Source: Plicaturopsis crispa FD-325 SS-3 (lineage: Eukaryota > Basidiomycota > Agaricomycetes > Amylocorticiales > Amylocorticiaceae). Taken from it: 64,000 nucleotides of DNA. The DNA is taken from NCBI GenBank assembly GCA_000827205.1, contig KN832574.1, forward strand, positions 267,840 to 331,839, written 5' to 3'. The position numbers and the translations under genes are program-made. The notes under the pieces are model-generated. The model was not told the DNA's origin. It worked only from the letters and a program-made list of their open reading frames with translations, and made no database searches. Shown piece by piece: positions 1,952-43,637 of this stretch. The number at the start of each line of letters is the position of its first letter. The first letter of the stretch is position 1.

Positions 1952-4857
1952 ATGTCTTACCAGGTCACTGCGTCGTCCTTGACTCCTTCTCGTCCTGCAC
2001 CACAAGCACCGCAGAGACGGGCTACGGACAGCCCCATGTACGCCAATAATAACGCACTCGCCTCATCGGGCTACAACACCTCTTTTACGCCTGCGTCCCC
2101 TGCGGGATCCTCATATGCCGCATCGTACACCGGCATCGGAGGCTCCCCGAATCGTACGTCGGAGGCGGCGTTCAACAGCCAGGTCGTCCGCGCGGGAACA
2201 GTCAACGTCAAGGAGGACGGGTTCGCTAGCTGGCTCTGGAGGCCGAAATGGCTCGTGCTGAAGGAGCAGACTCTCTCGATACACAAAAACGAGGTGAGTA
2301 TCTAGTCTCAAGATCACTGCGCTTATAGTGTGGCGTACTGGCTTCGAGTCCGCGCTTCAAGGAGGATGCATGTGTCGATGAACAACTGATCGTGCAGATG
2401 CATCGACATGATTGTCTCCACGCTGGTCGTATATGGGATACGCAGATACTAATCCGTTTCTCTCCAGAGCGCCCCGCAACAGAGCGTGATTTACTTGCGC
2501 GATATTGCGAATATCGAACGAATAGACCTGAAGCCGTACTGCCTTTTGCTGGAGACGAAGGACAAGCGGTATCACCTTGCACTGAAGAGCGACGAAGAGC
2601 TTTACGGATGGCAAGACGACGTCTACTCGCGTAGCCCACTTATGGGCGTCAGCAACCCCACGAATTTCGTCCACAAAGTCCATGTTGGCTTTGACCCTCA
2701 ATCTGGCGCCTTCACTGTAAGAGCCCCGTGCTCCTCATCGAGAATGATTTGATTGACAACCTTTCAACGCGTAGGGAATGCCCGACCAATGGAGCAAACT
2801 GCTCACAAAGTCAGCGATCACCCGTGAAGATTACGCCAAAGACCCTCAAGCCGTCCTGGATGTTCTCGAGTTCTACACCGACCATCAAAAGCGGGAAATG
2901 GAGGAGATGATGGCTATGTCTGGCCGCTCCGGAGGCTCCTCTAGCGGTGGCCAGTCTACTCTGTCTCCGTACTCGAGTGATTCCACGGGCGCCCCCGCCC
3001 GGTTCAACGCAGGTACCGGCCTTGCAGGCATGAGCAAAGTATCTCCCCTCGGCGGCGCCGATTCCCGTCCGAGCGGCGAGAACGGCAACATGTCATCTAC
3101 TGCTATGGCCGCTGCTCGTGCAGCAGAGCTTGTCAACTCCCAAGTACGTGCTGCATCTCGCCTACCTGCCTTGTGCTGACCCAATTCGTCTACAGTCCTT
3201 ACAGGCTACCAGACCTGCCCCTCCTCGGCCTCTCCTCACCGCTAACCGTCCTGCCCCTGCTGCTCCCCGCAGCGACCCGTCGAAACCGGCTCTGCCGGAC
3301 CATACCCCCTCTTCGGCCGATCTCCGCGCCCGAGCGAAGGCGCACGGTCCGCCCGAACAGCCCGGAAGACCCTCTGGCGAGAAGGCGCTTCCCCCGCGGA
3401 AGGACTCGCTCGCCACCGACCGAGAGCAGGAGCGCGACCGTTCCCGGGACCGGGATCGCGACCGCGAACGTGAGCGTGAAAGGGAGCGCGAACGTGATCG
3501 GGAGCGGGACAGGCAGCAGCAGCAACGGCCCAACCTGCCTCCGGCGAAATCGTCGCCCGCGACGTCGCAGCCTGCGACCCACCCCGCGCCCGGGCCCGCT
3601 GGCGCCACTGCCGGCCCGCCGCCTGTGAAGCCCCTGCAGCCGAACAAGAAAACCGCGCCCGCCGTTACGATCCAGGCGCCCCATGATAATGAGGAAAAGG
3701 GCAGCGTGGCTGCGGCCGCGGCCGCGCTGGAGAAGCCGAAGGAGAAGGAGAAGCGGATCAGCACGATGACGGAGGTGCAGATTATGGAGAAGCTGCGGAA
3801 TATCGTCAGCGACGATGACCCCAAGACGTTGTACAGCAAGATTAAGAAGGTCGGGCAGGGGTGAGTGCCTATGGAGGTTGTGTATGCCGCTTTGCTGATG
3901 GCTGCCGACAGTGCCTCGGGACATGTCTATGTTGCGAAGACGCTCGCGACTGGCAAGAAAGTCGCCATCAAGGAGATGGACCTTTCGCACCAGCCGCGGA
4001 AGGAGCTCATCGTTAACGAAATTATAGTTATGAAGGAGTCCCAGCACCCTAACATCGTCAACTTCTTGGAGTCGTATCTCGTCAAGAACAACGAGCTCTG
4101 GGTCGTCATGGAGTACATGGAGGGTGGTGCCCTGACCGATGTCATTGAAAATAACACATTAGAGGAGGATCAAATCTCCAGTATATGCTTTGAGGTGCGT
4201 AATTTGTTTTCTCTACACTTTCATAGCTTACGCCAATCGTGGCATAGACTTGCAAGGGCTTGGGACATCTGCACAGCCAGAGTATCATCCACCGAGACAT
4301 CAAGTCCGACAACGTCTTACTGGACGCGCAAGGCAGGGTGAAAATCAGTGCGTTCATTCCACCGCGCACTTGCTTTCTTCGATACTCACACCCCGATAGC
4401 CGATTTCGGTTTCTGCGCCAAGTTGACTGACCAGAAATCCAAACGCGCGACCATGGTTGGCACGCCGTACTGGATGGCGCCCGAAGTCGTGAAGCAGAAG
4501 GAATACGGCGCGAAGGTCGACATCTGGTCGCTCGGCATCATGGCCATCGAGATGATCGAGAACGAGCCCCCATATCTGGACGAAGAGCCGCTAAAGGCGC
4601 TGTACCTCATCGCGACGAACGGCACCCCCACGCTGAAGAAGCCGGAGGCGCTTAGCAAGGAGCTGAAGAACTTCCTCAGCGTGTGCTTGTGTGTCGACGT
4701 GCGGAGCCGGGCGACTGCGAATGAGCTGTTGGAGGTGCGTTTTTAATCTAGTACGGTGGGGCATGTACTGACTGTGCTACAGCACGAGTTCTTGAAGAAG
4801 GCGTGCGCATCGTCTGGGCTTGCACCCCTCCTCCGGTTCAAGAACAAGCCCTCGTAA
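1952..4857 (+). CDS. CLA4: Cla4-type p21-activated serine/threonine kinase (PH + PBD/CRIB + kinase)
   Basis: The predicted protein has 805 residues from eight exons: 1952-2293, 2468-2716, 2775-3143, 3196-3860, 3912-4194, 4248-4347, 4400-4734, 4783-4857. Domains in order: a PH domain (about 80-180), a Cdc42/Rac-binding PBD (about 180-235, beginning [14 protein letters not shown]), a long Ser/Pro/Ala-rich linker with an Arg/Asp/Glu-Arg dipeptide run (about 395-430), and a Ste20-group kinase domain (about 530-795). Visible catalytic motifs are the glycine loop [21 protein letters not shown] and the activation-loop [12 protein letters not shown] domain in front of the PBD separates Cla4 from Ste20. 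These kinases act downstream of Cdc42/Rac in polarity, septation and morphogenesis. The gene lies about 23 kb from the pheromone/receptor cluster, a linkage known from other basidiomycetes. All catalytic residues are present. Confidence 0.95.
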
Positions 4858-7937: not shown

Positions 7938-8060
7938 ATGGATGCATTCAACACGATAGCTACGCTCATCGCACAGGCCGCCTCTGAGGAGGTACCCCCT
8001 CCGTCGGACGAGGAGCATAACTCATTTGCCACCGGCAATTCATTTTGCGTCGTTGCATAA
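7938..8060 (+). CDS. lipopeptide mating pheromone precursor (CaaX), isolated copy
   Basis: This intronless 40-codon gene begins MDAFNTIATLI and ends SFCVVA-stop, a CaaX box for farnesylation, C-terminal proteolysis and carboxymethylation. An acidic stretch (PSDEEH) lies just before the presumed mature segment HNSFATGNSFC, the usual place for N-terminal trimming in basidiomycete precursors. N-terminus, length and tail match the seven precursors at 27.5-41 kb. It is about 19 kb from the nearest of those, between housekeeping genes. It could be a translocated member of the locus, a non-mating precursor, or a second sublocus. Confidence 0.85.
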   Translation: MDAFNTIATLIAQAASEEVPPPSDEEHNSFATGNSFCVVA

Positions 8061-16226: not shown

Positions 16227-17544
16227 TTACAGCGTTTTCGCCCACTCGCCCACTTTCTTCCACGCCCGCGTCCTCTCCGGCTCGAACGGCAGACCCACGA
16301 AATCATGCGTTCCCCCAAACTCCTCAATCCAGGTCACATTACCCTCCCCGATATCCGCCACAATACGCTCGCGCAGCGTCTGAAACGCATCCATCATAAT
16401 CTCCCCCTCGCCCACCACAACGCACGTCCTCGGGAACTTCTCGTATATCCCGTCCGGCTTGCTGATCCGCAGCGACGACGGCGATATCCACGCGTTCGTA
16501 TACACATCGTCCGGCGGGAGCTTCCCAAGCAGCCCCCGCGCCGAATACCCCCTGAAGAACGGCTCCACGTAGTCGCTCTTCTGATTCCGCACCCACGACG
16601 AGTCCGGGCCGTCGCCGTGCGTCAGCAGCCACTCGCCCGCGGGGGACACGAGCAGGGCCGCGCCCGGCGTGGGCAGCGCGGGAGAGGTGGACGCGACGAG
16701 GTACCGCGTGAGCGCGATGGTGAGGTTGGCGCCGGCGGAGTCGCCGCCGATGATGATGTTGGCGGGCTCGAAGCCGAGCGTGTTGAGGAGGTAGCGGTAC
16801 CCGGCGAGCGCGTCGATGAGCTGCGCGGGGAAGGCGTTGGCGGGCTGGAAGGGCTCGGCGGACGTCAGGCGGTAGTCGACCGCGAAGACGCGCTTGATGA
16901 GGGAGTCTGAATTGTCTATGATCCCGTTACACATGAGCGGGCACATCTTGTCTGTGGGTCTCGCGGAAAGCAGCTGCGGACACGTTGTTAGTGGTAATGT
17001 TCCCCCATTTCTGGACTGCAGAACGTAGAACTTACGACGTATCCCCCGCCTGTGTACGTTACATTTACGATTAGCAGGACAAATGCGGGTGCACGGACGA
17101 CATACCGTGGAGCCACAGCACGACCTTCTCACCAGGGTTCGCCTTCTGGCCGACCGCACCCTTCTCGCCTCGCGCACCATACCAATACCCAGATATCCTT
17201 GCGGGCACGACCTCGTTCAGTTTCGCGATATCGCGCACCTCGCCCCAGAGAAGCTCGTCCGGGATGGGCTCGAGCCACACGAACCCCGTCTTGTCCGCCG
17301 TGGCTGCGGCTTTTTCATTGTCCTCGGGCACGGGCAGCGCCGTCTGGTGCAGCGCGTCGATGACCGTGTATATGATGCGCACGCGGATGTGGCGGACGAT
17401 CCCCCACGTGGGGCGCGGCCGCCACGAGGGGCGCAGTGCTGTAATCGCCCAATACGGGATACGCACGACGAGAGAAAGCCCGGTGTAGAGGAGGAATATG
17501 ACACGCAGGGGCCAGGGGCGGTAGGTGAATGTCGTCGCCGTCAT
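16227..17544 (-). CDS. alpha/beta hydrolase of the hormone-sensitive-lipase type
   Basis: The protein has 399 residues from exons 17544-17106, 17049-17036 and 16973-16227. The second exon is only 14 nt long and completes the oxyanion motif HGGGYV (146-151). Other landmarks are the nucleophile elbow GDSAG with Ser230, Asp346 in GEGEIMMD, and His374 in GGTHDF, so the catalytic triad is complete. A hydrophobic N-terminal segment (about 12-30) may anchor it to a membrane. Relatives hydrolyse carboxyl esters, lactones or sterol esters; the substrate here is unknown. Confidence 0.88.
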
Positions 17545-27523: not shown

Positions 27524-27646
27524 TTATGCGACGACGCAGTACGTTCCAAGGCGCCATTGGCTGTCCTCGTCGACTAGAAGAGAGGCATCGCCGTCATCTT
27601 CGTGTGCGCCGGACGAGATGTCGAGGATGGAGGTAAATTCGTCCAT
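27524..27646 (-). CDS. lipopeptide mating pheromone precursor (CaaX: CVVA)
   Basis: This 40-residue intronless precursor starts MDEFTSILDI and ends GTYCVVA-stop. The motif LLVDEDS lies 12-14 residues before the CaaX cysteine; the shared VDxD motif suggests a mature peptide of roughly 9-12 residues ending in farnesyl-cysteine (region QWRLGTYC). A TATA-like CCCTATAAAA (minus strand, about 27811-27820) and four ACAATG/CATTGT sites (27832-27978) lie upstream. It is the first pheromone gene of the main cluster. Confidence 0.88.
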   Translation of the reverse strand: MDEFTSILDISSGAHEDDGDASLLVDEDSQWRLGTYCVVA

Positions 27647-27831
27647 GGGAGATGATACGGTGATGATTGGGTCGCAAAGAACGACGGTGCTAGAGTATAT
27701 GGTAGCGCGATGGGTGCAGCGAGGACGTCTATGCTGTTCGAGTCTCTACAGACTGTACAGATGCTCTAAGTGGGTCAATTGGGGGAATTTGAGGAGAATG
27801 TGGAGCCTGGTTTTATAGGGAACCGCAATCG

Positions 27832-27978
27832 CATTGTCCGCATTTCGTAAGTACTTTTTCCGGGCGCCATTGTCGTGCCTCGAGCCATCACGGTGTAGAA
27901 ATTGCAGTAGGCGAGTTTGGTAACGAGCGTCGAGAGCAAAAGGCAGAAAGGGCATTGTTCGCTAGAAATGGACAATAG
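27832..27978 (-). promoter_or_regulatory. cluster of four HMG-box-like sites
   Basis: CATTGTCC at 27832-27839, CCATTGTC at 27867-27874, CATTGTTC at 27953-27960 and GGACAAT at 27970-27976 lie 186-330 bp upstream of the 27646 pheromone start. Their density is well above chance for a 6-7 bp core. Confidence 0.5.
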
Positions 27979-28541
27979 TCACAAGTCGCGTGACGTGACA
28001 CCTCGCGACTCCTTGGCGCGAGTTTCCACTGCGCTCGAAATTCGCACTCAAGGGAACGAGCAAAGTCGTCGTAGAAAATAATTCGAGACAAGGCGCTCCG
28101 ATACAAAAAAAGTAGGTATAAGACTACATACTGATACAGCGATGATTCTATATCGTGCGGGCAAGCACATTGGAAACCCCCGATAATGAGCCTGAGATAG
28201 AAACTGAGAAACGGCACTACTGCGCGAATCAAAGCCCCCCAACTCCGAAATGGAACCCCTTTGGGCCCACCCCCCACGGGTATAATGCGCCCCCCGTGTG
28301 CCTTGTGTTGCGAGGGAATGAATAATCGGTGCAGGGCGATGTCGGATGTCGAGCGAGGAGAAATAATGGGACTGATGGAGAGATGCGAAGGCGAATTGAT
28401 AATGATAAATATGCTCGTAGCAATGCTGGACGCTGTGTGGAGAGGGATTAGCTCGCAGGACTGAGATGGGACAGAAAGCGCAATGACACGAACCTGGTTA
28501 GACGACCGCACACGAATAATAATGCAGACACGGGTCTGGAA

Positions 28542-28709
28542 TCATGCGATGACGCAGTACGTCCCGCTGTGCGATGGGCTGTCGGAATCGACAAGAGGAC
28601 GGCTGGGATCTAGATCGAGCTCGTCGTCGAAGGCAGCGTCGGCGGGCGCTGAGGGTGGTGGTGCGGTGAGAGCCGCGGACGCGAGGTCCAGGATAGCGTA
28701 TGCGTCCAT
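28542..28709 (-). CDS. lipopeptide mating pheromone precursor (CaaX: CVIA)
   Basis: This 55-residue intronless precursor starts MDAYAILDLASAA and ends GTYCVIA-stop. The motif PLVDSDS precedes the putative mature region SPSHSGTYC. It shares the GTYC ending with the 27.5 kb gene, so the two may be recent duplicates or signal to related receptors. Two HMG-box-like sites lie 235-275 bp upstream. Confidence 0.88.
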   Translation of the reverse strand: MDAYAILDLASAALTAPPPSAPADAAFDDELDLDPSRPLVDSDSPSHSGTYCVIA

Positions 28710-28944
28710 TGCGTGTGAGTGTGTGTGACGAGAGACGATGCGAGTGTAGTTGTAATTGCGCGGCTATGTGATATCGCACGAAGGGGGGCCTTTTGCGTAG
28801 AGAAATAATTGGCGTACGCACTTGCGCAGCTGCTCAGCTTATAATGGCCCTCGCTACGCGGACGCGTGGGAGGCGACATTGTTCTTGAATATTGGATATT
28901 CGGTCCGGTGGATCAGTCGGGTAGCCCTTTGTCGAAATTTTCGC

Positions 28945-28981
28945 CCATTGTTCGACCTCCGGGTGAGACAGAGGACAATGG
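28945..28981 (-). promoter_or_regulatory. paired HMG-box-like sites
   Basis: CCATTGTTC (28945-28953) and GGACAATGG (28973-28981) form an inverted pair upstream of the 28709 pheromone start. Confidence 0.5.
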
Positions 28982-29633
28982 CGGGCGGAGCGCTCCGGGG
29001 GTAATGGCAGGGGCGCTCAAATATATCGCTTGACCTCGTGGACTGCGTCTATATCGATGGCGCGGTGGGCGCGATCATGGCGCAGTCCAGCGGTCGATCG
29101 TGCGCCCTGCAGCTCGTCACGGTGGAAGGAAAATACTGTAAACATCATGAGTTTCTCGCCGAAGTAGCATGAGATTTCATACCGAACTTTTGTCGAGGAG
29201 GGCGCCTCTCGATATGTTCCGCTTCCTCAATCGAGGGATGGTGGAAGGCGGCGGGCAGCGTGAGCGCATCCGACCAGCGTCCGACGCGAACCTCGAGGCG
29301 CGACCACGTGCAATTTCGGCAGGCTCAGGCTCAGCGCTCAGTTTCAGAGAGAAATTCATTCATTCGCGCATTCGTGGGCCATTTTTCTACAGCAAAAATA
29401 CAAGTAGAGTTGAAATATAGGATAGAGAACGCGTAGAGTAATAACGTCGAGGAAAGCAATGAAGGGAGCGTGGGCCGAGCGGCATATTCGTAGTGCTACA
29501 GTTCTAAACGCAAGAGACACAGTGAAAGCAGAGGAATACATAAGTACGGGACATAACCGGTGAATCGTCCGTCTTGCGGCGACAAGCCCGCGTGTTTTTT
29601 CGGTGATAAATAGGTAGTGGGCGTGCGTTCAGT

Positions 29634-31401
29634 TCAGACCACGTCGAGTGGCTGGGTGTACGTCTCGGTGTGGATCATGACTTGGATGGAATTGTTGAGA
29701 CTGTGCGACGAGGGGTGGGGCGTTGGTATAGGGTATACGCTCGGGGGCGTGAACGGGCGGCTGTACGGCTCGAACGTCGGCATTGGCGTAGGAGCACGGG
29801 AGCAGGGGTGTGCGTCGGAGATCACGATGTCGTGATGCTGCGGAGTGTCCCGACCGTCCATCGAGTTCGCGGCGGAGATGTCGATGACAGAGGAGAACGC
29901 GGAATGGGGTCGGGTGGGAGTGTCGTCCGTTGTGTAGTCCGAAGGGGAGGGGGAGGGGAAGCCGTGCCCTTTCTCGAGATCAACGTCCATTGCGCTATCT
30001 GCCAGAGACGAGGTCAGCGACTCGGGGCGGCGCTTCTTGTTGGCGGCGCTGCTGGGGCTGGGAGGTGTGTAGGCAGGAAGTGAGTTGTCAGAGTGTAGAT
30101 AATCTCCTTTTGGAGTCGCTTTCCAACTGCAGAGGAAGATCAGCATGTGACACAAGATGCGGATACTCGTAAGGAACGCACCTCTGTTTTCCCGATGACG
30201 CGATGCCTTTGCTAGCGGGAGGATTGAATCCAAAGCGCTTCGCAACAGCCCAGAACGCTATGCTATAGTTCTTCTGGGCTTCCCCGGCAAATCCGAAGAG
30301 CGCGAAGAAAAGCAACGCGCAGAAGGGATACAGCCAGCGGGTCAGCTCCGCCGAAATCTGGAAGGACGGGTCGCTTCGCCAAACCAGCGCTGGGAAGAGC
30401 CCAATGCGGCCGAAATCGAAGTGGACATTGGCCCAGGAAATATATGGCGAGAGTTCTACATCCTGGTTGGCGATGTACATGCTGTAGATGCCGAGGGGAA
30501 TGGTGCAAAGCATTTCAATGCAAGCGAGTAGGATGAGTCGGAGGTACCGGCTGATGTTCATGGACGTGTTTGAGGATATGAATTGGGTAAATTGCAGGCG
30601 TCTCTTCCAGAAGGCACGCAATGTCATCGCTAAGTACGACAACCACTACAATTAGTGCTGTTACCTGAGCAAAAGTAGAGGGCAGACTGACCAGAATAAA
30701 CAAACGAAACGCAGCCCAAGGCAACAGGCCACATAAATACGAGGAAATACGCTGGAAGAGTGTTGTAAATAGTTGGATAGCAACCAATGTTTTCCATGAT
30801 GTCGAATCGGTGACCTTGCACGACAATGTCTGTGGGTGGCGCGGCATGAAGTCAACTACCCGCGTTGCAGACTGTGATGAACGCAACTTACGCAGTATCA
30901 TGACGAGTACCGGTACGCCGACGGCAATGCAGACATCACCCACGATAGCGCGTATTTTCTGTGTTCCGCAACGTAAGTAAATTGCAAGGTAAGAGTGACA
31001 AAAAAACACACGTCTTGTCTACTGACGGACACGGTTTGAATGGCAGTGATCTTATAGAGACGACGACTAATGCACAGAGACGACGCGGGAATTCCAATGC
31101 CCACACCAAGCAGCAGTTTGGACGCTGTTGACAGACGTAACGTGGTGAGAACCTATTAGCATGATAGCAAGGGAAAGCACGTACATATATCGCACCACAC
31201 GGGCGCGACATTGTTCACGTTATCTTTCCATACAAGCGCGTTCACAAATCCGATGAGGCAGGCCACAGACGCCCAAATCATGTACGCGCACGTCCCGGCA
31301 TTCCACGCCTGGAGATGCCATGGCAGAGGGACGAGACTGAGGATGAAGCCCAGGAAGGCGAAGATGGGGTAGAGAGGATACGTCGGGTCCGTCGAGAACA
31401 T
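29634..31401 (-). CDS. STE3: STE3-type pheromone receptor 1 (GPCR)
   Basis: The receptor has 491 residues from exons 31401-31185, 31124-31012, 30958-30892, 30829-30692, 30629-30182 and 30126-29634. It is a seven-span, class D GPCR of the STE3 family. Landmarks are PLPWHLQAWNAGTCAYM in helices 1-2, VWCDI at the first splice site, SLCISRRLYKI, QGHRFDIMENIGCYPT, LRAFWKRRLQF and FGFAGEAQKNYSIAFW after helix 7. A long Ser/Pro-rich cytoplasmic tail (over 160 residues) is encoded by the last exon and probably mediates desensitisation. It is divergent from the 31772 pheromone gene across a 370-bp shared promoter. The initiating ATG is the one preceding the extracellular FSTDPTYPLYP. Confidence 0.93.
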
Positions 31402-31494
31402 GGCGAGAGGTATTCTAGCGAACACGAGAGAGGGAGGTAAGGACGCATCTCTGCGCAGCAGCAAGGCATTTTATCGATGTCGCCAAGGGCGCGA

Positions 31495-31649
31495 GGACAA
31501 AGGACAAGGCGCACAATGGGAAACGCGCTCAATGCGCAAACAGACCGTGGGACCATCCGCTAAACTCCGCGATCCTGCGTGTTTACCCAATAAGGTAACG
31601 TCATTCAGCCGAGTCCTCTGTCTCAAAGTCCACTTCCGACAGACAATGG
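31495..31649. promoter_or_regulatory. shared divergent promoter with HMG-box-like sites
   Basis: GGACAAAGG (31495-31503), ACAATGG (31513-31519) and ACAATGG (31643-31649) lie between receptor 1 and the pheromone gene at 31772. A TATAAAAG box at about 31679 serves the plus-strand gene. Confidence 0.5.
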
Positions 31650-31771
31650 ACGCTCTAACCGATGCATGTGGGTGGTGCATATAAAAGCAAGCCCCGGCTT
31701 GGTGTGCGCAAACAATTTTTTGCGCCCCACCGAACGACCCAAAGTTTTCTCGTCACCACACTCGCTGCTCA

Positions 31772-31989
31772 ATGGACACTTTCACATCGCTCGCCGCTCT
31801 TTTCGCTGCTCCGGCCAGCAGCGCCCTACCCACTGCGTCCCTTGCGACGACCGATCCCGACTTCGTAGAGGAGTTCCCCCCCGTCGACGCCGAACATGAT
31901 GGAACTGGTATATCTCGTTCGTTCTGCGTCATAGCATGTGAGACTCTTTCCGATTTGCTATTTACTTTCTCTCTAACGACTCTCTAGAA
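31772..31989 (+). CDS. lipopeptide mating pheromone precursor (CaaX: CVIA) with stop codon made by splicing
   Basis: Exon 1 (31772-31937) encodes 55 residues, MDTFTSLAALFAA to RSFCVIA, plus the single base T. A 50-bp intron (31938-31987) with GTGAGA donor, CTAAC branch-like site and CTCTAG acceptor follows. The two bases AA at 31988-31989 complete TAA. Without splicing the frame reads on for 16 residues past CVIA, destroying the CaaX box. Acidic motif PPVDAEHD precedes the likely mature region DGTGISRSFC. The other cluster precursors lack an intron here. It is divergent from receptor 1. Confidence 0.82.
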
Positions 31990-32947
31990 ACATCATGATC
32001 TCTACTCCTACTCCTTGCACGGACAAGCCCATCGTATCACTTTCTGTAGCCTTGATGTATCACTATCGGTGAGATATTTTTCCTCCATCGCCATATTCAA
32101 GCGCTTACCACTGTCCAATAGCACAGTACATGAACACTCTATATCGGATAGAGCGGTCAGGGGAAGGGCACGGATGCCTCGTTTCTTAATTTATGTTATT
32201 CGATTATCGTTTCCTTACACGCCTCATTATACTCTACCTACGAGTTTTCTTTCGATTATTAACCATGATTCTCTCCTACGCACTCAAGTCGAAAGCTCTC
32301 CCGATATGTTTGGTTATCATCAGACTTTGACGCGACTCGGAGGCTGAAATCGCACCATGAACTTCGGCCGATTATTCAGCGCGCAAGCATCAAGGCCTTA
32401 GGTCTCCACTAACACAAACTTTACATAGAAAATGGGCGTGCACAACCGACACGCCATGGTGCAGGGGGAGTTTTGCGAAGTGGGGATATATGCTACTATT
32501 CACGTCGACCGACGACTGAGTCGACTGAGGGGATCTTGGACGAGGAACTCTGGAGGAGCTCACAAACGTTCACGTAGACTCAATGCACACAAAAGAGGTG
32601 GCAGCGGCCAAGCAACGACACGTATAATTCGTATAATCGGGACAGATAGTGATGTGTCAATGGGAATAGCGATACATAATCATCGGAAAGTAAGGAGAGA
32701 CGGGTAGGTGTAAAATAACCAGAGGATACAGAAACGGACGAAAGGATAAGATAATCGGTCTAAAATAATCGTGTGTGCGTCAATGCTGGGAGTGAAGGGG
32801 AAACACTGTGGGCCCAAAGGCGATTGGGCGACGCTTTAGGTCTGCGGCACGCCAGGTGCGACGAGACATGCTACAGGAAGAACAGGTGTTAGCGGGGAAC
32901 GCATGGGATGGTGAGCGCGGTGCGTACCTTGGGTGCAAAATGCACGC
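31990..32947. other. intergenic stretch within the mating locus
   Basis: No supported gene and no CaaX-ending frame was found. Confidence 0.45.
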
Positions 32948-33091
32948 CTATGCAATGGTGCAGAAGCTACCATAGCCTTGGATGACGTCGGAATCAACGA
33001 GGAGCTCCTCGTCGTCCTCCGTGGGGCGGCTTTCGCGCGCCTGGGAGATATCATCGGATTGCTCCGGGAAGATGGTGGTGAAAGCGTCCAT
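32948..33091 (-). CDS. lipopeptide mating pheromone precursor (CaaX: CTIA)
   Basis: This 47-residue intronless precursor starts MDAFTTIFPEQ and ends GSFCTIA-stop. ELLVDSDV precedes the presumed mature region IQGYGSFC. It is the only precursor here with Thr at the first aliphatic position; Thr is tolerated in fungal CaaX boxes. It is divergent from receptor 2 across 516 bp. A TATA-like GGTATAAAA (minus strand, about 33270-33279) lies upstream. Confidence 0.87.
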   Translation of the reverse strand: MDAFTTIFPEQSDDISQARESRPTEDDEELLVDSDVIQGYGSFCTIA

Positions 33092-33455
33092 GAGGGCGAT
33101 GGGATATCGGAGGTGCGCTGTCGTTGGTGGTTATGAGTGTGGGGGTGAGGAGTGCGCGAGCCAAGCAGTGGTAGGAGCGGTGCTGGAAAGCAGATAGTGT
33201 GCGCGCCTATGCAGACTTGGGGGATACTGGACAACTTTTTTTTGTTCGCCCCTAGAGTTGCGGCTACGGTTTTATACCAGCCTATTATTCCCGGCCCGCC
33301 GATAATGTGTGGTCATATTAGCGTCGGGAAAGCGAGACAAGGGTACATGCGGTGCGTTAGGGTCATTGGGCGAGAAAGCGCATTATTCGTTCCTATTCGT
33401 CCAAAAATGGGAGCTTACATAATGAGGTTTGAACTCCGATCCTCTTTGTCCTCGC

Positions 33456-33507
33456 ACAATGCGCACCGCGACGCGCCTTGCCGACGACCTCAAAGGGAGG
33501 ACAATGG
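33456..33507. promoter_or_regulatory. HMG-box-like sites in the pheromone/receptor 2 divergent promoter
   Basis: ACAATG (33456-33461) and GGACAATGG (33499-33507) lie about 100-150 bp upstream of receptor 2 and 365-415 bp upstream of the divergent pheromone gene. Confidence 0.5.
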
Positions 33508-33607
33508 TCTCAAAGCACTATGCAAACAATAAGTATATATCGATGGGTCCACAGAACTTGGCCGCCTCCTCACCGACTCTTGATACCTCCTGAGCCACTC
33601 CGCTACG

Positions 33608-35318
33608 ATGGACCCAACTTATCCCCTCTTCCCCATCTTTGCTTTCCTTGGATTCTTCCTCTCGCTCGTGCCCTTGTCGTGGCACCTCCAAGCATGGAAT
33701 TCAGGGACTTGTTTCTACATGATCTGGACGGCGCTTGCGTGTCTGAATCAATTTGTGAACTCCGTTGTGTGGGCTGGAAACGCGCTGAATCCGGCGCCGA
33801 TATGGTGTGATATATGTACGTCTTGCAATTCTGCCAGTGCTATGCGGTGTGCTCACCGCGTATGCTTAGCGATTCGAATTACTCTTGGTGCCTCCGTTGG
33901 CATACCAGCTGCCTCACTCTGCATAAATCGTCGCCTATACCAAATCGCACGCGTTCATGCTGTCACCATCACTCATGCCGAGGTAAGTCGAAGGACTATA
34001 TCACATCGGCGCGTTGCTAACATCCACCATTATAGAAACGACGAGCTATCCTCATCGACAGCCTAATTTGTGTGCTGTTCCCTGTTATATTTATTGCCCT
34101 CCGTGAGTTCAAAAGAATTTTTGGGGTTGTGCATGCGACTAACTGCCAGACCAGAATACATTGTCCAAGGCCATCGCTTTGACATATTCGAGGACATCGG
34201 GTGCTACCCCTCTATCTTCAACACACCTGTCAGCTTCGTCATCAACAGCATGTGGCCCATTGTTTTGGGCCTGATCTCTGCCGTCTACTGTGGTATGTTT
34301 GGCCCCATACGATTTTGAACTCTCGCTCATATTCCTCTTCAGTCCTTTCTCTCCGTGCCTTTATGCACCGGCGCTCTCAGTTCAACCAATTTCTCACTTC
34401 GAACGCGTCGTTGACCGTCAGCCGCTACTTCCGCTTGATGGCACTCGCGATGACGGAGATTGCCTGCACCACTCCGCTCGCGATATTCGCCATCTATCTG
34501 AATGCCAATGCGCAGACGATGCAGCCCTATGGAAGCTGGGAGAACGTGCACTTCAATTTCTCGCGCGTCGAACAAGTGCCCGCAGTTCTCTGGCGGATGA
34601 ACCACCTGTTTGTGATCTCCGTTGAGATGAGCCGCTGGGTCGCGCCGCTATGCGCGTTCATCTTCTTTGGCTTCTTTGGCTTTGCTGAGGAAGCGAGACG
34701 GCACTATGCCATGGCTTTCTGGGCTGTACTCAAGCGCGTGGGCTTCCGACCACGCGTAACCGTGCACGCCTTGCCAGGGTGAGTTGCTTATTTTCTCACT
34801 GTGTCGACAATATGCTAACTTGCTGCTGTAGCTACACCGGGGCAATGAAAAAGGAAGCAATGCTTTCGAGCCATAACGCTTCCGCATGCCCACCTTACGA
34901 TTACTCCCCTGACCATCCCGGATCTTTCTCCTCGATATCTACCGACCAGTCGCTTCGCAGTGACTGGAAACCCACAAGAAGTTTCCCCCATATGTTCTCT
35001 CTTCCCATTGGACCGCCAGCCGTTCCCCAATATGCCGACGAATCGCTCTCACGCTACATTGAGTCCCTACCAACCCCCACGACAGCTACGTCTTCCTCTT
35101 TCAGCGACGATCGTTCACATGGGCGCGCATCGATGTCGGCGGTGGCCTCTCCGCCAAATTCCGCTGCACACTCGGCGTTCAGTCCATCACGACCGCAATC
35201 ATTACCATGCGTATTGGACCGGGCGGTGGAGCCCGGCCTACGCTCGAGCTTTTCGAGCAGCTCTACTCTCGATGCCTCACAGCCGACCCCAAGCTCGAAC
35301 CACGTCGACCGCCGATAG
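33608..35318 (+). CDS. STE3: STE3-type pheromone receptor 2 (GPCR)
   Basis: The receptor has 482 residues from exons 33608-33815, 33870-33982, 34036-34102, 34155-34292, 34343-34778 and 34832-35318. Exons 2-4 have exactly the lengths of receptor 1 (113, 67 and 138 nt). Landmarks are PLSWHLQAWNSGTCFYM, IWCDI, SLCINRRLYQI, KRRAIL, QGHRFDIFEDIGCYPS, LRAFMHRRSQF and FGFAEEARRHYAMAFW. The C-terminal tail (about 160 residues) is Ser/Pro-rich and unlike that of receptor 1. Exon 4 uses the second AG (34153-34154); the upstream AG would break the QYIVQGHRF motif. Confidence 0.92.
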
Positions 35319-36366
35319 CTGATCCATCTGGTATTGATCACCGCGCGCGCCCCAGTTGCTACACGACATTCTCTCCCATTTCCTTACCTCGGGACGCACA
35401 GTCGCCAGGAATGTGTCCGTTCTTTTGATCTCACCTCGCCATCCGATACCTGTCCTTGTAGTCGTTCCGATTTCTCACTGTAGCCTTACTTGCCACGCAA
35501 TTGCGCACCACTTTAGATTCATGTAGTAGTAGTTCAATATTTATGCGACGTTTTTCCCGCAATCAAGAATGTCGACCCTCTCCTTATGGTCTCTGCTCTA
35601 CTCGGGCTCTAAGTATTGTTTCGTTAGATGGCGAGGGCGATGTAACAGTGTACGAAGTAGAATTTTCGTGGCGCCTTGCTCAACGCCCAGAGACCCCCAG
35701 CGGCTGCAACGTAAGCCTCATAAGTGGGACCTGTCTCACCGCAGTCGATCATTTGACCTGCCGGGGCACATCTACAACGCGAGGCGACGCACTGTACTCC
35801 TCGGTCACGGACATGCTAAGACAAGATCGACTCACGGCGAAAATTGTGACTTAAAACTCGAGCCAAAAGACGAAGAGGCAGGCGAAGAGATTAATTCATG
35901 CGTCTACAAGTCGGGTAGCAAATTGGTACTGCCAGCGCATAAGCTACATATATGTGAAGATACGAAGGAGGCGATAATGAAGCGGGACGAATAATCTTTC
36001 TCTAACAGCGGATAGAATAAGCGGAAAAAATAATGGGTATCGCGGAGACCATGGTGGAAGATAATGCCCGAGAAGGAGTGTGAACGCAAGCATGCGGGGA
36101 GCGATAAAAACGTTAAATATGGCAAGACAACGTCTGAAGACGTGGCGCTTCTTGAGCTACACCTGCAGCATGAAACGTGAGCGCGAACCCTTACTTTGAA
36201 AGAGCGGACGAGTAGGCTTACCGATACGGATACAGCAGTCAAAGAGATTACAGGGAGCGCGGCGGTCATGTCGTGAGGTTCGATACAGACGGCGGACGCT
36301 ATGGCAAACACGAATTAAATCGTGCAGGCAAAGTAGAAAGGGAGGCACAGCGTACCAAATGATGTT
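35319..36366. other. intergenic stretch within the mating locus
   Basis: Only unsupported short frames were found. Confidence 0.45.
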
Positions 36367-36519
36367 TCAAGCTATGAGGCAGAACGACGTTGAGGTGCTT
36401 GAGCCCCAGTGGTCGGAATCGACGAGGATCTCCTCGTCCAACTCGCCTGCTGCGACGTTGTCCGATGTGGAGGGAGAGGGAGCAGCTAGTGCATCCAGTA
36501 GCGATAGAAAGTCGTCCAT
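36367..36519 (-). CDS. lipopeptide mating pheromone precursor (CaaX: CLIA)
   Basis: This 50-residue intronless precursor starts MDDFLSLLDALAA and ends SFCLIA-stop. EEILVDSDHW precedes the presumed mature region (G/S-rich, ending STSTSFC). An upstream in-frame ATG (36639) would add 40 residues. The shorter form is preferred because every precursor here starts with MD and a hydrophobic/Ser pattern, and because a TATAAAAG box (minus strand, about 36609-36617) lies between the two ATGs. It is divergent from the 37323 gene. Confidence 0.88.
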   Translation of the reverse strand: MDDFLSLLDALAAPSPSTSDNVAAGELDEEILVDSDHWGSSTSTSFCLIA

Positions 36520-36636
36520 TGGTTGGGTTACTGGGTAGTAAGACGAAAATTCTCTACTGTGCGAGATTGCGTGGGGCGTAGTGATAGCGTCAGAATATTC
36601 GAGGATGGCTTTTATAGAGGACTTATTTGACGATGT

Positions 36637-37191
36637 CATTGTTTGGAGGACAATGGCCCTTCCTCGTTATTTGCTTGGGTTTGCACCATTGTCCACTGGC
36701 AGTACGGAGTCACGGACTCTGGTTCCGGGATCCTGTCGAGGTACGCGGCGATGACAAGATACCAGGGCCATAAGCGGTTACGCGTGCCAAAAGATATTGG
36801 CTGCAACTGCAAGGGCCGTGAACATATCGGAAGACACGCCTCGAACTGCAGTGTGTAGTTTGCAGCAATAGTCCATGACATTGACATTGGACAATGGGGA
36901 AAGGTGTGTCTCACGTGTCGGAAGCAACAATGAGAAATTTTAAACTCCGCGGCTTTCCTTTTCTCTTGCTCGCCGCGGCCGAGTTCAACAGGCGCTGTGA
37001 AACTAGTACGAAGACTTGTCCTTGGAGTCCTCCTCTTGGCTTTGACGACAATGGTGGAAAAGTCACGGACATCTATCCAGAGCAGCAATGAGACCCAAAG
37101 GCAAATGGGGATAGGGACACAGGGACGCATATTGCTCCGTGGACGCCTCGCGTAGCGGCGCTTCGGAAATGCATTGTCCGCTGAACAATGG
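36637..37191. promoter_or_regulatory. divergent pheromone-pheromone promoter with seven HMG-box-like sites
   Basis: Sites are at 36637-36644, 36648-36656, 36686-36694, 36889-36897, 37048-37054, 37172-37179 and 37185-37191, several as inverted pairs. This is the densest set in the window and lies entirely between two divergent precursor genes. Confidence 0.55.
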
Positions 37192-37322
37192 CTCGCGTAT
37201 TTGGATTATTCTACATTTCGGGTACGGGGTATAAAGTCTGAGCTCTGTGTGTCGAGGTGAGCAATTTTGAACCCCAACTCAACGTCGCCCTCCTGTACTA
37301 CGCATCAGTGCTAGACATACCA

Positions 37323-37496
37323 ATGGACCACTTTCTTACTTTCGACGACGTGCTCGCTGCAACCAACACCCCCACAACCAACACTCCTCTCTCTGATTCC
37401 TCCTCGGAAGTATGCGAGCTCTCCGGCGAGACACCGCCCAGTGACTTTGATCACTCGGGAAGCTATTCAATCGGTGGTTTCTGTGTTGTAGCATAA
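37323..37496 (+). CDS. lipopeptide mating pheromone precursor (CaaX: CVVA)
   Basis: This 57-residue intronless precursor starts MDHFLTFDDVLAATN and ends GGFCVVA-stop. PSDFDHSG precedes the presumed mature region SGSYSIGGFC. A longer in-frame start at 37257 exists, but the MD start at 37323 matches its relatives. A GGTATAAAG box at about 37227-37235 lies about 90 bp upstream of 37323, also consistent with the later start. Confidence 0.87.
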   Translation: MDHFLTFDDVLAATNTPTTNTPLSDSSSEVCELSGETPPSDFDHSGSYSIGGFCVVA

Positions 37497-38550
37497 CCTC
37501 TCCCTCGGTGTGTACCTTCGCTTCTACATCTCAGGGCGCCTTCGCTGATCAAAAATCCTCAAAGACCTCGCGTTTCAAGATGTCGCACGACGATCATCAT
37601 CTAACCCTATGTATCGATTATCTGGGTCAGTCTGTCACTCGCGTGCGATGTCTTGCAATGCTCACAATCCTCCAGGTGTATTCTGAAGGGTTCTGCCTGA
37701 ACGGGGCGACATATATCTTTCTGGATTATAAGCCACATGCTGGCGCGCACGCTCTTTCTATAATCTGTCTCCTTATCACTCTGCGATTATTTCTACTTTT
37801 ACCTGCGATTATTTTTCGGTCTGTGATTTCAGGCGTCGTCTTGCTATTCTATGTATTGTTTCGCGTTCAATATACATATTGCCGGCAGGCCCAGCTAGAC
37901 TTGTCCTCGTGTACGATGCCTCGATATTTCACGCTCGCACTGTGCGACTTGAGGGAGGTTCAAACACCAGCCAATACGGACGCCCTCGCGGGCGCACACG
38001 TAGAGTGCTAGTGGTAGACGTAAGATACTGAGATAGGGCAGGGCGTCAATCTCTCAAATGTATAGTCTTAAAGCACGCTCATCTCGATTGACATACAGAT
38101 AAACAGTCCTACTTACAGGTAGCTGCTATGAGTACCTCGTCATGACGCACCTAGTAACTGAAGAAAAAGATGTCCGCGAGATAAAAAATATTACGAGCAG
38201 TGTTATGGTAGAACTACAGTGATTCTGCGTGATAGTTGAGCCCAGAGGCCTAGAAATGAAAAGGTCCTTCCAGGCAGACCACTTTCAGAGCGCGCGCCGA
38301 CTCGAATCGGGGCGTCGCGTCGCGTGCACGTGCATGAACCCTGTTACGTAACGTCACCCAAAAGGAAATCGAGAACAAAGAGTCGGCAAATCCGCCTGTT
38401 CACTCCGCCCATTGTTACCCACCGCACGCAGCCAACAATGTGCACAAATGGACCCAAAGAAAGAAGATATATGTGCAGGACGCATCCTTTGTCGAGAGGT
38501 ATCTCTGTCTCTGACACTTACCTCCCGTCGCCACCGTCGTCGAAACTGCC
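37497..38550. other. intergenic stretch and promoter of receptor 3
   Basis: An open frame at 37508-38011 is hydrophobic in part but has no family signature; it may be chance. Two HMG-box-like sites, CCATTGTT (38409-38416) and AACAATG (38434-38440), lie 110-145 bp before receptor 3. Confidence 0.45.
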
Positions 38551-40024
38551 ATGTTCGATCCATCCTACCCCGCCTTCCCTGTGCTCTCCTTCCTCGGATT
38601 CGTCCTCGTCCTCATACCGCTGCCATGGCATCTCCAGGCGTGGAATGCTGGAACCTGCCTTTACATGATCTGGACTGCGGTTGGGTGTCTTAACCTTTTT
38701 ATCAACTCCATTGTATGGAGTAACGATGCAATCAACCGCGCGCCTGTTTGGTGCGATATATGTGCGTATCCGTCCTTACCGTGGTGTGATACTACATCTA
38801 ACATATATATCTTTCAGCCACACGAATCATTGTTGGAATTGCTGTCGCCATTCCCGCCGCATCATTGTGCATCAATAGACGTCTCTACAAGATCGCTACT
38901 GTCCAGTCGGTGTCCGTCTCGAGAGGCCATGTAAGCGTTTTCGTCGTCCTTGGAAAGTATTACGCTGACGTTTTATGACAGAAACGCAGGGCGGTTATGG
39001 TTGATTTAGCGATCGGCCTAGGTATCCCCATCGCTCAGATGGTACTTCGTTAGTACTCTTCTCCCTCCTTGATTGGCGTTGGACACTGACGCCTCATCAG
39101 AATATGTCGTCGAGGGACACCGCTTCAATCTCTGGGAGCAGGTCGGATGCTACCCTGCAACTTACAACACGCCACTCGCATACCCTTTGTCGATTGTGTG
39201 GCCCTGTGTCATTGGTCTTATATCTGCTGTGTACTGTGGTACGTCCATTCTCGCTTAACGCTCCCGGTTTGTCCTCTTTATTGACAGTATTCCGCACAGT
39301 TTTGACTCTACGTGCCTTCATGAAGCGCAGAGCGCAATTCAGTGACTTCGTCAATAAGAATTCGTCCCTCACGGTCAACCGTTATTTCCGCCTTATGGCT
39401 CTCGCCACCACGGACCTCCTCTTCACAGTACCGCTCTCTGCCTACAGTATCTATCTCAACGTCGCCAAGAGCCCGATATACCCATGGATCAGCTTCGCAG
39501 ACACGCACGGCAACTACTCGCACGTCGACCAGTTCCCTGCCGTTCTATGGCGCTCCAGCCACGAGACGGTCGTCAGCCTCGAGCTGAGCAGATGGCTTAT
39601 GGTCGTCTGCGCATTTGTTTTCTTCTTTTTCTTTGGTTTTGCCGACGAGGCGCGCAGAAACTACAAGGCTGCGTACTGGGCCATCGCTAAGCGCCTCGGT
39701 ATGTCGCCGCCTTCCAAATTGCAGTCGAGCATCTCGCATAGGTACGTCCATATCTCTACATTCCTCCCAATCACCAGTGTGCTGACAGTGTCACCTAGCT
39801 ACAACATCAAAGCGCCAGTCCGCTCGAAGCCGACTATGGATTCTATCTCGACGCTACCCGTGTATATGCCTCGCGCTATTACGACACCTACCCGGAGCTC
39901 CTTCTCCACCAGAAACGACGACACGTTCAGTTCCACATTCTCAGAGGATTTCAAATTCCCCGCCACTCCTTCTTCGTCTTCATCTTCCAATGACTCGCAC
40001 GGACACCTTCCACGAGCACTTTAA
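38551..40024 (+). CDS. STE3: STE3-type pheromone receptor 3 (GPCR)
   Basis: The receptor has 398 residues from exons 38551-38761, 38818-38930, 38982-39048, 39101-39238, 39300-39741 and 39799-40024. The 113/67/138-nt exon core is again conserved. Landmarks are PLPWHLQAWNAGTCLYM, VWCDI, SLCINRRLYKI, EGHRFNLWEQVGCYPA, LRAFMKRRAQF and FGFADEARRNYKAAYW. The cytoplasmic tail is much shorter than in receptors 1 and 2 (last exon about 75 codons) but still Ser/Thr-rich, ending with a Ser run. The acceptor at 39298-39299 was chosen over 39286-39287 because it aligns the LTLRAF motif. Confidence 0.92.
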
Positions 40025-40866
40025 CGCGCACACACGCCCCTCACGCACATATTTATTGGTTACGAAAGTTTGTACACGAGGGCCTTTAGGGGCGCCCTCG
40101 CTCGATCTCTGTTTTTCTAGTTCTTCTCGCCGCGCGCGCGCACTACCTTAGACTACTTACCCACCAACTGTATCCATAGTCTCCGTTAATCACAATGCCC
40201 TTTTTGCGTATGCCTTGTCTACGATGCAAAAGCTTATGGGTTAGCTCCTGGATTCCTTGATCGCTCATATCCTTCTTTAAACTTGAGCTGGAGGACATTC
40301 ATTAGGACAAAGAGTCTGATGAGCATCTCGTCGGGGAAAGGGAAACCCTAACCCTAAAAGAGGTGTTCCCAAAAATGGAGAACAATGTCAACGTCGCCCT
40401 TTGCTTTCGATTCAAGCTCCGCGGCGTCCGTCAATATTCTCTTCCCCCTTCCTGAACATCAGCGTAAATGTCACCATGGTCTGCATGTCTATGGCTCTCT
40501 GCAATTGCGAGGCGTGCCTCAACTGGACCATTAGTGTCTTAGGTAGTTTCACACAAGAGCAGACCTCGCGCAAGCGAGCGAGGATAACGCCGGATCCGAA
40601 AATACAGACAATGCGCTTCCACCGCCATTGTCCGTGACGGCGCCCAGTTACACATGTCGGACCTGAACGCTTCGCTTCACTCCTCCCATTGTTCCAACAT
40701 CAAAAATCGGCAGCCATTAGCCGACCGACAATAGGCCCAATAAATACCAAGCTTGCGCTCTCGCACTCGTTCACCTATTTGCCCACTCACCCATACGCTC
40801 TCGCGCACACCGCACCAGCATACTCTCGAAGCCCTTGCTCCGCGAAACATCATTCAAAGCTTCACA
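40025..40866. other. intergenic stretch with pheromone promoter
   Basis: A short telomere-type run AACCCTAACCCTAAA occurs at 40344-40358. HMG-box-like sites lie at 40608-40613, 40625-40633 and 40686-40694, 170-260 bp before the next pheromone gene. Confidence 0.5.
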
Positions 40867-41040
40867 ATGGACTCCTTCGCATCCCTTGAGTCGTTCATCG
40901 CATCGAACGCATCGCCCGAGTCGATCCCAACGACAGCGCAGGCAACCTCTACCCCCGACGACTTCGAGGAGTCCAGCCTGGCTGACCAGGAGTATGGCAG
41001 CGGCAATGGCGGCTCTGGGTGGTTCTGTGTCGTTGCGTGA
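40867..41040 (+). CDS. lipopeptide mating pheromone precursor (CaaX: CVVA)
   Basis: This 57-residue precursor starts MDSFASLESFIAS and ends GWFCVVA-stop. SSLADQEYG precedes a Gly/Ser-rich presumed mature region. The TGA stop overlaps a donor-like GTGAGC, the position at which the 31.8 kb gene has its real intron. Here the unspliced reading already gives a CaaX end. An in-frame upstream ATG at 40753 is judged untranslated because of the conserved MD start. Confidence 0.87.
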   Translation: MDSFASLESFIASNASPESIPTTAQATSTPDDFEESSLADQEYGSGNGGSGWFCVVA

Positions 41041-41980
41041 GCTGCCGCCGCACCCACACATTAGCATCTGTCTCTCGACTGTAGCCAGTGAGTTCGCTAA
41101 ACTAACCCGAGCGTTTCATCTACTGACATAGTTTGTGCTTCAGCTAGCAACCACTGTCTTCATTATGCGTCCGCAGACGCCTATTTATCATCCTTCATCT
41201 CAGTATGTGCTTCTCGGTGTATCCTGTCCAAGGTGATGCTCACCCGCGCCTTCACAGCTATCTCATCCCATCCTGGCGCGCTCCGCTAGCGGACGTCGGT
41301 TATCCATTATCGATTATCTCCCGCATTATATTCCATCTCTACACTCTCGGCATACCTTCGATTCACTTGGGGACAAGGCCTACTCGCCTGGCAGACACAC
41401 TCTTTATTGCGCTCTCATGATTGTATATACGGTTATTTCGACGATGCACGTCTCGTCCAATCTATCAGTCTCGTTATCCTACCATCTTTTGGTCGTGAAT
41501 GACTTGGCAAAACTTTTGATCCATGAGCACGCACACCAGTGCTCGCTAAGTGTCTTTGTGACATACTTAGTAGTACGCCTTTGCGCGTGTAGAGACAAGC
41601 CAAAGTCCCTCGACCTCGTTACGCACTTGTCAGCCAAGCTCAAGAGAGCCGCCACCTTTTGTCTGGCCTTCGTAATGCAATCAAGGGCAAGTCACTCAAG
41701 CCGCAAAGGCCGAAAGCCTTAGGGAGTACTCCTTGAACATGTGGTCAAACAAATGTATTGTGCGAAACCCAAAAATCAACAGCCGTCTGTTGTACAAGGA
41801 ACGTATCGTAAGTAAAGTACATAAATGAAAGGGCTACAGTGTCGGAACGTTCGTGATGAAAGTGAGATGGAAACAGATCTGGGTATGACAGAGCAATGAG
41901 CGGAAGCCTTCGCGTGTTGGAGGGAAGGCCGAGAAGAGAGGCAATGCAAAGAGACGAAAAAGATCTAGAGGGCATGCGCA
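41041..41980. other. intergenic stretch
   Basis: No supported gene. Confidence 0.45.
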
Positions 41981-43538
41981 TTAGACGTGGTTGGCGGGAT
42001 CGTTTTGTGTGTGCTCTATATGAGACGGATAGTCGTGGTGAGAATCAGAGTATGCGGATAGTGAGCTTCGGTGTGGAGACGGCTCGCGGTGGCCTGCACG
42101 CGGCATCGTCGAGGAAGAAGCGGAAGTCGACGGGGAGGAAGGCTGGAGGTCATCGAAGGAGCCAAGCACCCGCGGGCCTTGGTAGGACAGGGACGGCGCG
42201 CCGAACGACGTGCGGTCGCCGAACGACGTACGATCGGGCGAGGACGCGCCGAAAGACGAGGTGTCGTAGAAGTCGTAGTCGTCGAGCGTGCCCTTGGACT
42301 TGTACGGCGGCGGCGGGCTCGGCTGCACGAACGACGGCGAGATGTCGAGCACAGGCAGCTTCGGAACCCCTGCAGACTTCGTCGTCGGGAGCGACGACCC
42401 GAAGCCGCTGTTGTTGACCTTGTACCCCTTCTCCCCCGCAACGCTCTTGCGCCGGAAGACGCTCGTACGCACCCACGCCCAGCACTTCCCGTACTCCCTC
42501 ACCGCCTCCTCTCCAAACGCAAAGAACGCAGCAAAGAGGATGCTCGAGACGGGCACGAGCCACCAGAGGACGTAGTAGTTCACGAGCACGACCTCCGGCG
42601 TGAAGAGGCTCGGGTAGAGGTCGACGCGGGAGAAGTCGGAGTGCACGGCGGCCCAGGAGGTGTAGGGGCGGAAGGAGAGGGAGGAGAAGTAGAGCGTGTA
42701 GGAGGTGAGGGCGAGGGACCAGACCATCTCGATGGAGGCCATGAGCATGAGGCGCAGGTAGCGCGAGGTCGTGAGCCCGGAGGAGGAGTTCTGCAGGTGC
42801 CGGGAGAAGTTGAGGCGCTGGCGCAGGAAGTGGCGGAATGCGAGGGCTTGGGAGCAGATGAGCACGAGCAGGTGTCGAGTAGGGTAGGGAGACGTACCAG
42901 AGAAAATAAGAGAGCCTATCGCGAGGATCATCGGCGGCACCCAGATGACAAATATTGCGGGGATGGATACATATGTCGTCGGACGGCATCCGTACTCCTC
43001 GATGATATCGAATCGGTGTCCTTGGACAGTATAATCTGCGCCATAAAGTGTGAGAAGTCGCACAAAGAGAAATGAGCCACCGACAAAGGACTTACGAAGA
43101 CCCATAAATACGATAGGTAAACCCCAGCACATGAAGCCCTCGAAGAGTTGACGCCTCCGTTTATCGGCATGCGTCGTACGCGCTTGGCGCACCGATGAGA
43201 CTTGCTCGAGATGTATGCAGACGCACAAGCACGCTGCCGGGAGCGCAAAGTTGGCGCCAATAATAATCTTGGCGGCTGAGCACAATGTCATTCAGTCAGT
43301 GCACACGCTAGGCGCACCATGAAAGGAAGTGAGACGCACTGATATCACACCACACGGGTATGACATTGTTCACATTGTTCCCCCAGACGATGGCGTCGAC
43401 GCCGTATATGACGTTCGCAATGAAGAGCCAGGCGATCATGGAGAGGGTGGCTACGTTGCCTGCACGCCAGTGCCAGGGCAATGGCACGAGCAGGATGAGG
43501 GCGGCGAGGAAAGCGACGACGGGGAATTCGCGGTGCAT
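41981..43538 (-). CDS. STE3: STE3-type pheromone receptor 4 (GPCR), divergent, fewer introns
   Basis: The receptor has 460 residues from four exons: 43538-43340, 43275-43096, 43035-42898 and 42846-41981. It keeps the intron after VWCDI and those flanking the 138-nt exon. The 113- and 67-nt exons of receptors 1-3 are fused into a 180-nt exon, and the intron before the tail is absent. Landmarks are PLPWHWRAGNVATLSMI, QGHRFDIIEEYGCRPT and FAFGEEAVREYGKCW. The tail is about 170 residues, Ser/Pro-rich, with a duplicated DRTSFG motif. The 51-bp third intron has an AAG acceptor and is a multiple of three, so retention would stay in frame. It belongs to a different receptor clade from 1-3 and may or may not be mating-type-specific. 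Confidence 0.9.
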
Positions 43539-43637
43539 GGCGCCTGAATATGTGGAGGGCGGGGGAGAAAGATGGGGACGAGAGGTAAGCTGGGCATATT
43601 TAACGAGAAGTAAGCGTGCGGTATGTGATGGGAGGAA

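Follow-up and report, generated by a model that had tools for sequence, protein, structure and literature searches.

A probable pheromone/receptor locus in Plicaturopsis crispa: four STE3 receptors, eight precursor genes, and a stop codon predicted to be made by splicing

Is a tight cluster of receptor genes and very short reading frames in Plicaturopsis crispa a mating-type locus, and if so, where does it end and which of its genes act in mating? The window, meaning the whole stretch of 64,000 nucleotides (nt) that was analyzed, occupies C21:267840-331839, on one contig of a genome of 33,202,659 bases in 49 contigs. The original prediction, made from the letters alone, placed a compact pheromone/receptor mating locus in the middle of this window, with four STE3 receptors and seven CaaX pheromone precursors. 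Its core reading is well supported: PF02076 receptors, with open spliced cores, are interleaved with precursor genes, four and seven of them in 16 kb. We put the probability at roughly 0.9 that the region is the pheromone/receptor (MATB, P/R, or 'B') locus of an Agaricomycete, in one haplotype. The locus is of an expected, well-known kind, an ordinary P/R (MATB) locus, and the species behind it is probably tetrapolar. Published systems are cited below from parts of the papers concerned.

Receptors were sought with profile PF02076 against the whole genome, at the curated cut-off. All 18 exon matches exceed it, and together they form six receptor genes: four in the window (A to D) and two on contig C19 (E19a and F19b). 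Each of the four predicted receptors is matched over the cut-off, and the same search rules out false receptors; the candidate reading of the window genes as non-STE3 proteins was rejected. Six receptor cores (285-323 amino acids) were read by our own spliced alignment, seeded with receptor D and covering the cores without their C-terminal tails. A simple hydropathy scan gives seven hydrophobic peaks in A, B, C, and F19b, and eight in D and E19a. Window receptor introns measure 50-64 nt, with four in each of A, B, and C (50-62 nt) and two in D. Three receptors had been called one type and the fourth divergent, and this holds: A, B, and C are mutually 51-57% identical, and 35-39% identical to D.

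29634..31401, minus strand: receptor A (STE3); core 31371-30223; introns of 60, 53, 62, and 62 nt; tail exon, an open frame, reaching to 29634; from PF02076 and spliced alignment.
33608..35318, plus strand: receptor B (STE3); core 33629-34755; introns of 54, 53, 52, and 50 nt; from PF02076 and spliced alignment.
38551..40024, plus strand: receptor C (STE3); core 38575-39682; introns of 56, 51, 52, and 61 nt; from PF02076 and spliced alignment.
41981..43538, minus strand: receptor D (STE3, divergent); core 43538-42446; introns of 64 and 60 nt; from PF02076 and spliced alignment; the model may retain one further short in-frame intron.

A first scan of the window, for short open reading frames (ORFs) ending in a CaaX-like motif plus stop, gave 11 candidates. 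Seven of these start with MD and resemble precursors: six of those originally reported, and one more, p0. Repeated with no stop requirement, the scan recovers eight precursors and nothing else in the window.

7938..8060, plus strand: precursor p0, 40 amino acids, CVVA; PF08015 score 16.3 bits, below cut-off.
27524..27646, minus strand: precursor p1, 40 amino acids, CVVA; 12.2 bits, below cut-off.
28542..28709, minus strand: precursor p2, 55 amino acids, CVIA; 23.0 bits, over cut-off.
31772..31937, plus strand: precursor p3, 55 amino acids, CVIA plus the T of a putative split stop; 33.5 bits, over cut-off.
32948..33091, minus strand: precursor p4, 47 amino acids, CTIA; 20.0 bits, below cut-off.
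36367..36519, minus strand: precursor p5, 50 amino acids, CLIA; frame open upstream, with a further ATG at 36639; 24.5 bits, over cut-off.
37323..37496, plus strand: precursor p6, 57 amino acids, CVVA; 25.9 bits, over cut-off.
40867..41040, plus strand: precursor p7, 57 amino acids, CVVA; 36.6 bits, over cut-off.

The alternative that these are chance ORFs was rejected by 300 dinucleotide shuffles of 27400-43600. The pattern MD-x-[FYL] ... C-aliphatic-aliphatic-[AS] occurs there seven times (six with a stop), against a shuffle mean of 0.02 (maximum 1), or 0 (maximum 0) with a stop. All seven predicted precursors are present; six end at a stop codon, and p3 needs splicing. With p0 included, seven of eight combine a short ORF, an MD start, and a C-terminal CaaX directly followed by a stop, and p3 would do so via splicing. 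They had been described as all under 60 codons; the lengths of 40-57 amino acids agree, conditionally, as the limit holds for p3 only if it is spliced. Five of the eight (p2, p3, p5, p6, and p7) exceed the curated PF08015 cut-off.

Why does p3 need splicing? The stop-demanding scan missed it because its frame runs on after CVIA: the CVIA-coding part, 31772-31936, continues with no in-frame stop, to 71 amino acids unspliced. The GCA codon of CVIA is followed by a T, then by GTGAGA...CTAAC...CTAG (50 nt), then by AAACATCATG.

31938..31987, plus strand: putative p3 intron, 50 nt, GTGAGA ... CTAAC ... CTAG; its removal joins the T to AA (31988-31989), giving TAA.

Most likely, p3 gains its stop codon, and hence its exposed CaaX end, by splicing, as these splice motifs suggest. 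Alternatively, p3 could be a decayed precursor that has lost its stop, leaving a 71-residue read-through product with no usable CaaX end. The frame does run on, and Flammulina FvPp1 carries one extra residue past its CaaX, ascribed by its authors to a mutated stop (PMC3140503). Decay is nevertheless unlikely: GTGAGA, CTAAC, and CTAG stand in the exact phase that yields TAA; the PF08015 score of p3 is second-best among the eight; and similar signatures lie past six of nine other precursors.

That last comparison used an intron signature with a GTRNG donor, CTRAY branch, and YAG acceptor, about 43-85 nt long and starting at most 50 nt past the stop (for p3, past the CaaX). Seven of ten precursors have it: p0, p2, p3, p4, p7, and q1 and q2, two genes on contig C18 described below. 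Among control ATG ORFs of 40-60 amino acids, taken from the same loci with the precursors left in, the figure is 26 of 587 (4.4%). The statistic was devised after p3 had been seen and counts p3 in (six of nine without it), and its binomial P of 8e-9 is naive in assuming independent genes. Against such a pattern, p1 and p6 have no signature, p5 has a loose form only, and the donors are scattered, from +1 to +47. Introns past the stop are independently supported as a general pattern by Agaricus bisporus, in which three expressed precursors have introns in the 3' untranslated region backed by expressed sequence tags (ESTs) (PMC8305134).

The literature searched, a small sample of print, held no mention of a splice-made stop codon in a pheromone gene, and this predicted feature is mildly new. 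It is highly doubtful that splicing also gates p3, such that joining T to AA would give a prenylatable CaaX end, the unspliced message would give a 71-residue product with no CaaX end, and retention would act as an on/off switch. If true, the gate would draw on an intron apparently kept, just past the stop, by most precursor genes in this genome. For gene finding, the practical trap is that a search demanding a stop right after the CaaX misses p3; pheromone genes may therefore lie hidden where an intron falls at the stop or shortly past it. Precursor genes are already known to be often missing from automatic gene models (PMC5473757), and for Polyporus umbellatus the part of the account covered reports none by ORF prediction plus motif search.

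Where does the locus end? It had been bounded at 27524-43538, and the cluster does lie there, but the precursor list was incomplete: p0, 19 kb outside that range, was missed, and through it the locus reaches at least 7938, near a kinase gene. The span from p0 to receptor D is 35.6 kb, with eight precursors. p0 shares 44% identity with a stretch of q2 (E 0.0016). Right after the p0 stop (window 7938-8100) stands a degenerate second copy of TGCGTCGTTGCATAA, namely TGCGTCGTAGCACAA, which looks like a tandem duplication of the 3' end about 21 nt on.

2775..4743, plus strand: kinase gene of PAK/CLA4 type; PBD frame 2775-3176 (E 2.4e-8); kinase frame 4342-4743 (Pkinase, E 5.2e-29).

The type follows from the combination of a PBD with a kinase domain; HRDIK stands at 4290 and DFGF at 4402. 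Linkage of CLA4 with the B locus has been described in other mushrooms.

Inside the cluster, the claim that no other recognized gene intervenes is upheld, as 20 other ORFs match no Pfam family at E 0.01; lineage-specific genes may nonetheless be present. The cluster has no direct repeats of at least 25 nt that would mark a recent duplication. One of its two inverted repeats pairs the first exons of receptors A and B, and the other those of A and C. A search of 177635 PDB sequences found no solved structure of a relative at E 0.01 or better. A laccase, examined as a guide to the species, comes closest to PDB 9gly_A, followed by other laccases.

How would such a locus work? By established biology, each precursor would be cut near an acidic motif (such as DEEH, DAEH, or DSD) and receive a farnesyl group at its CaaX cysteine; trimming and methylation would then leave a peptide of roughly 9-11 residues. 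The mature pheromone would be inert on the receptors of its own haplotype and would activate an allelic STE3 receptor in the mate, and the activated receptor would drive nuclear migration and clamp fusion. For p3, the stop codon that exposes the CaaX would most likely be made by splicing. Position suggests three likely units: p1-p2-A-p3; p4-B; and p5-p6-C-p7. Receptor D is likely non-mating or separately acting; on the side of D facing away from the cluster, the precursor scan found no precursor up to the window edge.

It is rather probable, as a refinement of the P/R locus reading, that mating-type specificity resides in only part of the cluster: the specific part would be receptors A, B, and C and the precursors beside them, or some of these, and D, perhaps with p0, would be non-mating and pheromone-like. 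Receptor D is 37% identical to the diverged E19a and groups with it in a six-sequence tree, and p0 resembles the unlinked q2. Two of the four clustered STE3 genes of Trichaptum are judged non-mating (PMC8970355), and S. commune holds three receptor-like genes near its locus. Function, however, is unreadable from one haplotype, and the unlinked F19b shares more with B (61%) and C (64%) than receptor A does (51-54%); sorting mating from non-mating receptors by similarity alone therefore fails. The two C19 genes lie at 291.1-300.4 kb (locus L021), 7-8 kb apart, F19b being very like B and C, and E19a strongly diverged. Because no convincing precursor was found in the 50 kb of C19:271001-321000, both are probably non-mating receptors. 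The divergent receptor D, like this pair, may be one as well.

Several points weigh against identifying the region as a functioning mating-type locus. The material is one haplotype, which puts allelic divergence and recognition specificity out of reach and makes mating-type activity, and the choice of receptors that set mating type, unreadable. The evidence is genomic sequence. Three of the eight precursors fall under the PF08015 cut-off. P/R genes persist in bipolar species with no mating-type role (PMC8305134). Finally, in Flammulina CLA4 and matB are unlinked, and for that reason the kinase flank is suggestive only.

Could the P/R genes have been kept here, too, while no longer setting mating type? 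The species would then be bipolar, with the homeodomain (HD) locus alone deciding, and pheromone signaling would serve only later sexual development. Bipolar Agaricomycetes do retain P/R genes (PMC8305134), and P. chrysosporium, described as bipolar, has five receptors, of which three form a cluster (PMC4101180). Yet the precursors and receptors of the window are diverse and tightly interleaved, whereas those of A. bisporus lie scattered (PMC8305134), and this scenario is quite improbable.

Several published systems are comparable, and to these the window adds a well-resolved B locus haplotype. Four receptors is an ordinary number among the compared loci. The precursor count, predicted to be high for one haplotype, is at the upper end, above the clearest single-haplotype counts (5 and 6), but lies within the published range of 2 to 8 in the compared loci and is not striking. 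MATB of Trichaptum abietinum and T. fuscoviolaceum (PMC8970355) likewise has four STE3 genes in one region and PAK among its flanking genes, but two precursors in 30.3 kb, as opposed to eight over 35.6 kb here. Locus B of Grifola frondosa (PMC10607315) resembles this one in that its single P/R sublocus is accompanied by precursors lying 10.8 and 12.5 kb away (compare p0); it differs in carrying six receptors and five precursors, spread over 47.8 kb. Pleurotus ostreatus PC15 matB (PMC13108863) is comparable, with five STE3 genes and six precursors in about 40 kb, although its flanking genes are MFS and UbiA.

Other likenesses concern the precursors. Pycnoporus cinnabarinus (PMC4101180) has seven, of 39-65 amino acids with MDA/DF starts and CaaX ends, along with mating and non-mating receptors; however, four of these precursors are similar to non-mating pheromone-like peptides, its receptors come from EST contigs, and its precursors are not tied to one locus. 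The pheromone-like precursors of A. bisporus (PMC8305134) share G-rich mature peptides, but their genes are scattered and have no mating-type role, and the parts of that account covered mention no split stop. Rhizopogon vinicolor has six receptors and eight precursors, and R. vesiculosus four and four; the source speaks of dikaryotic assemblies, so the counts may not be those of single haplotypes. The B3 locus of P. eryngii has four precursors, and Polyporus umbellatus has six receptors in 48 kb.

Do precursors occur elsewhere in the genome? Genome-wide searches were non-exhaustive: a PF08015 scan listed only four of the eight window precursors, and searches with single proteins (p7, p5, and p0) each found only the query itself and one relative. 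In 17 other loci of the genome (170,000 bases, a mostly-N locus excluded), the pattern used for the shuffles found one C18 precursor (q1) and one poor match with no stop.

C18 L035 2902-3090, plus strand: precursor q1; layout matches q2.
C18 L035 6340-6537, minus strand: precursor q2; MSD start and two pheromone-like units.

The two genes are about 3.3 kb apart, and the whole-genome PF02076 search found no STE3 receptor on C18. q2 reads ...VDEEHGYNGNSYCVVSK...VDEERGNCGNSYCVVA; its two units share an acidic motif and an NSYC end (EEH-GYNGNSYC-VVSK ... EER-GNCGNSYC-VVA). In q1, the first unit ends SSFFAVA, an F replacing the first Cys. In predicted q2, only the C-terminal CaaX is certainly placed for prenylation. 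Rhodotorucine of Rhodosporidium has a multi-unit lipopeptide precursor, with tandem units that each carry a prenylatable Cys. That precursor is touched on in PMC3068285, and Trichoderma HPP1 has a threefold repeat (PMC3068285). A limited literature search found no mushroom for which a lipopeptide multi-pheromone precursor is described; q2, if processed, would be one, and its two-unit form is a predicted, mildly new feature. Also on C18 (L036), ORFs for DUF6589 and a DEAD-box helicase (203-2438, plus strand, and 2880-5246, minus strand) lie about 10 kb or less from the nearer precursor.

What surrounds the P/R genes? Twenty long ORFs of the window flanks were compared with Pfam one by one.

16230-17216, minus strand: alpha/beta hydrolase, over the Pfam cut-off.
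5247-6353, minus strand: CNOT11-like stretch, below cut-off.
62482-63273, minus strand: DUF6534 stretch, below cut-off.
10651-11256, plus strand: viral-family match that looks like chance, below cut-off.

Among 56 further window-flank ORFs, strong Pfam matches come from the kinase ORFs, and two other families match weakly (E 0.0047 and 0.0072). The farther C21 flanks (38 of 39 listed ORFs, a mostly-N locus excluded) contain matches to glycosyltransferase family 20, trehalose-phosphatase, and amino-acid permease.

The HD genes lie elsewhere. Contig C2 holds a divergent homeobox pair and, about 5 kb away, a Peptidase_M3 gene, which we take for MIP, judging from its family and its place; MIP is linked to the HD genes in Agaricomycetes (PMC3140503). 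The HD pair and the Peptidase_M3 gene are thus on C2 and the P/R genes on C21, separate contigs, though contigs are not chromosomes. A third Homeobox_KN gene, apart from the C2 pair and the best-scoring of the three, is found on C11 (L009).

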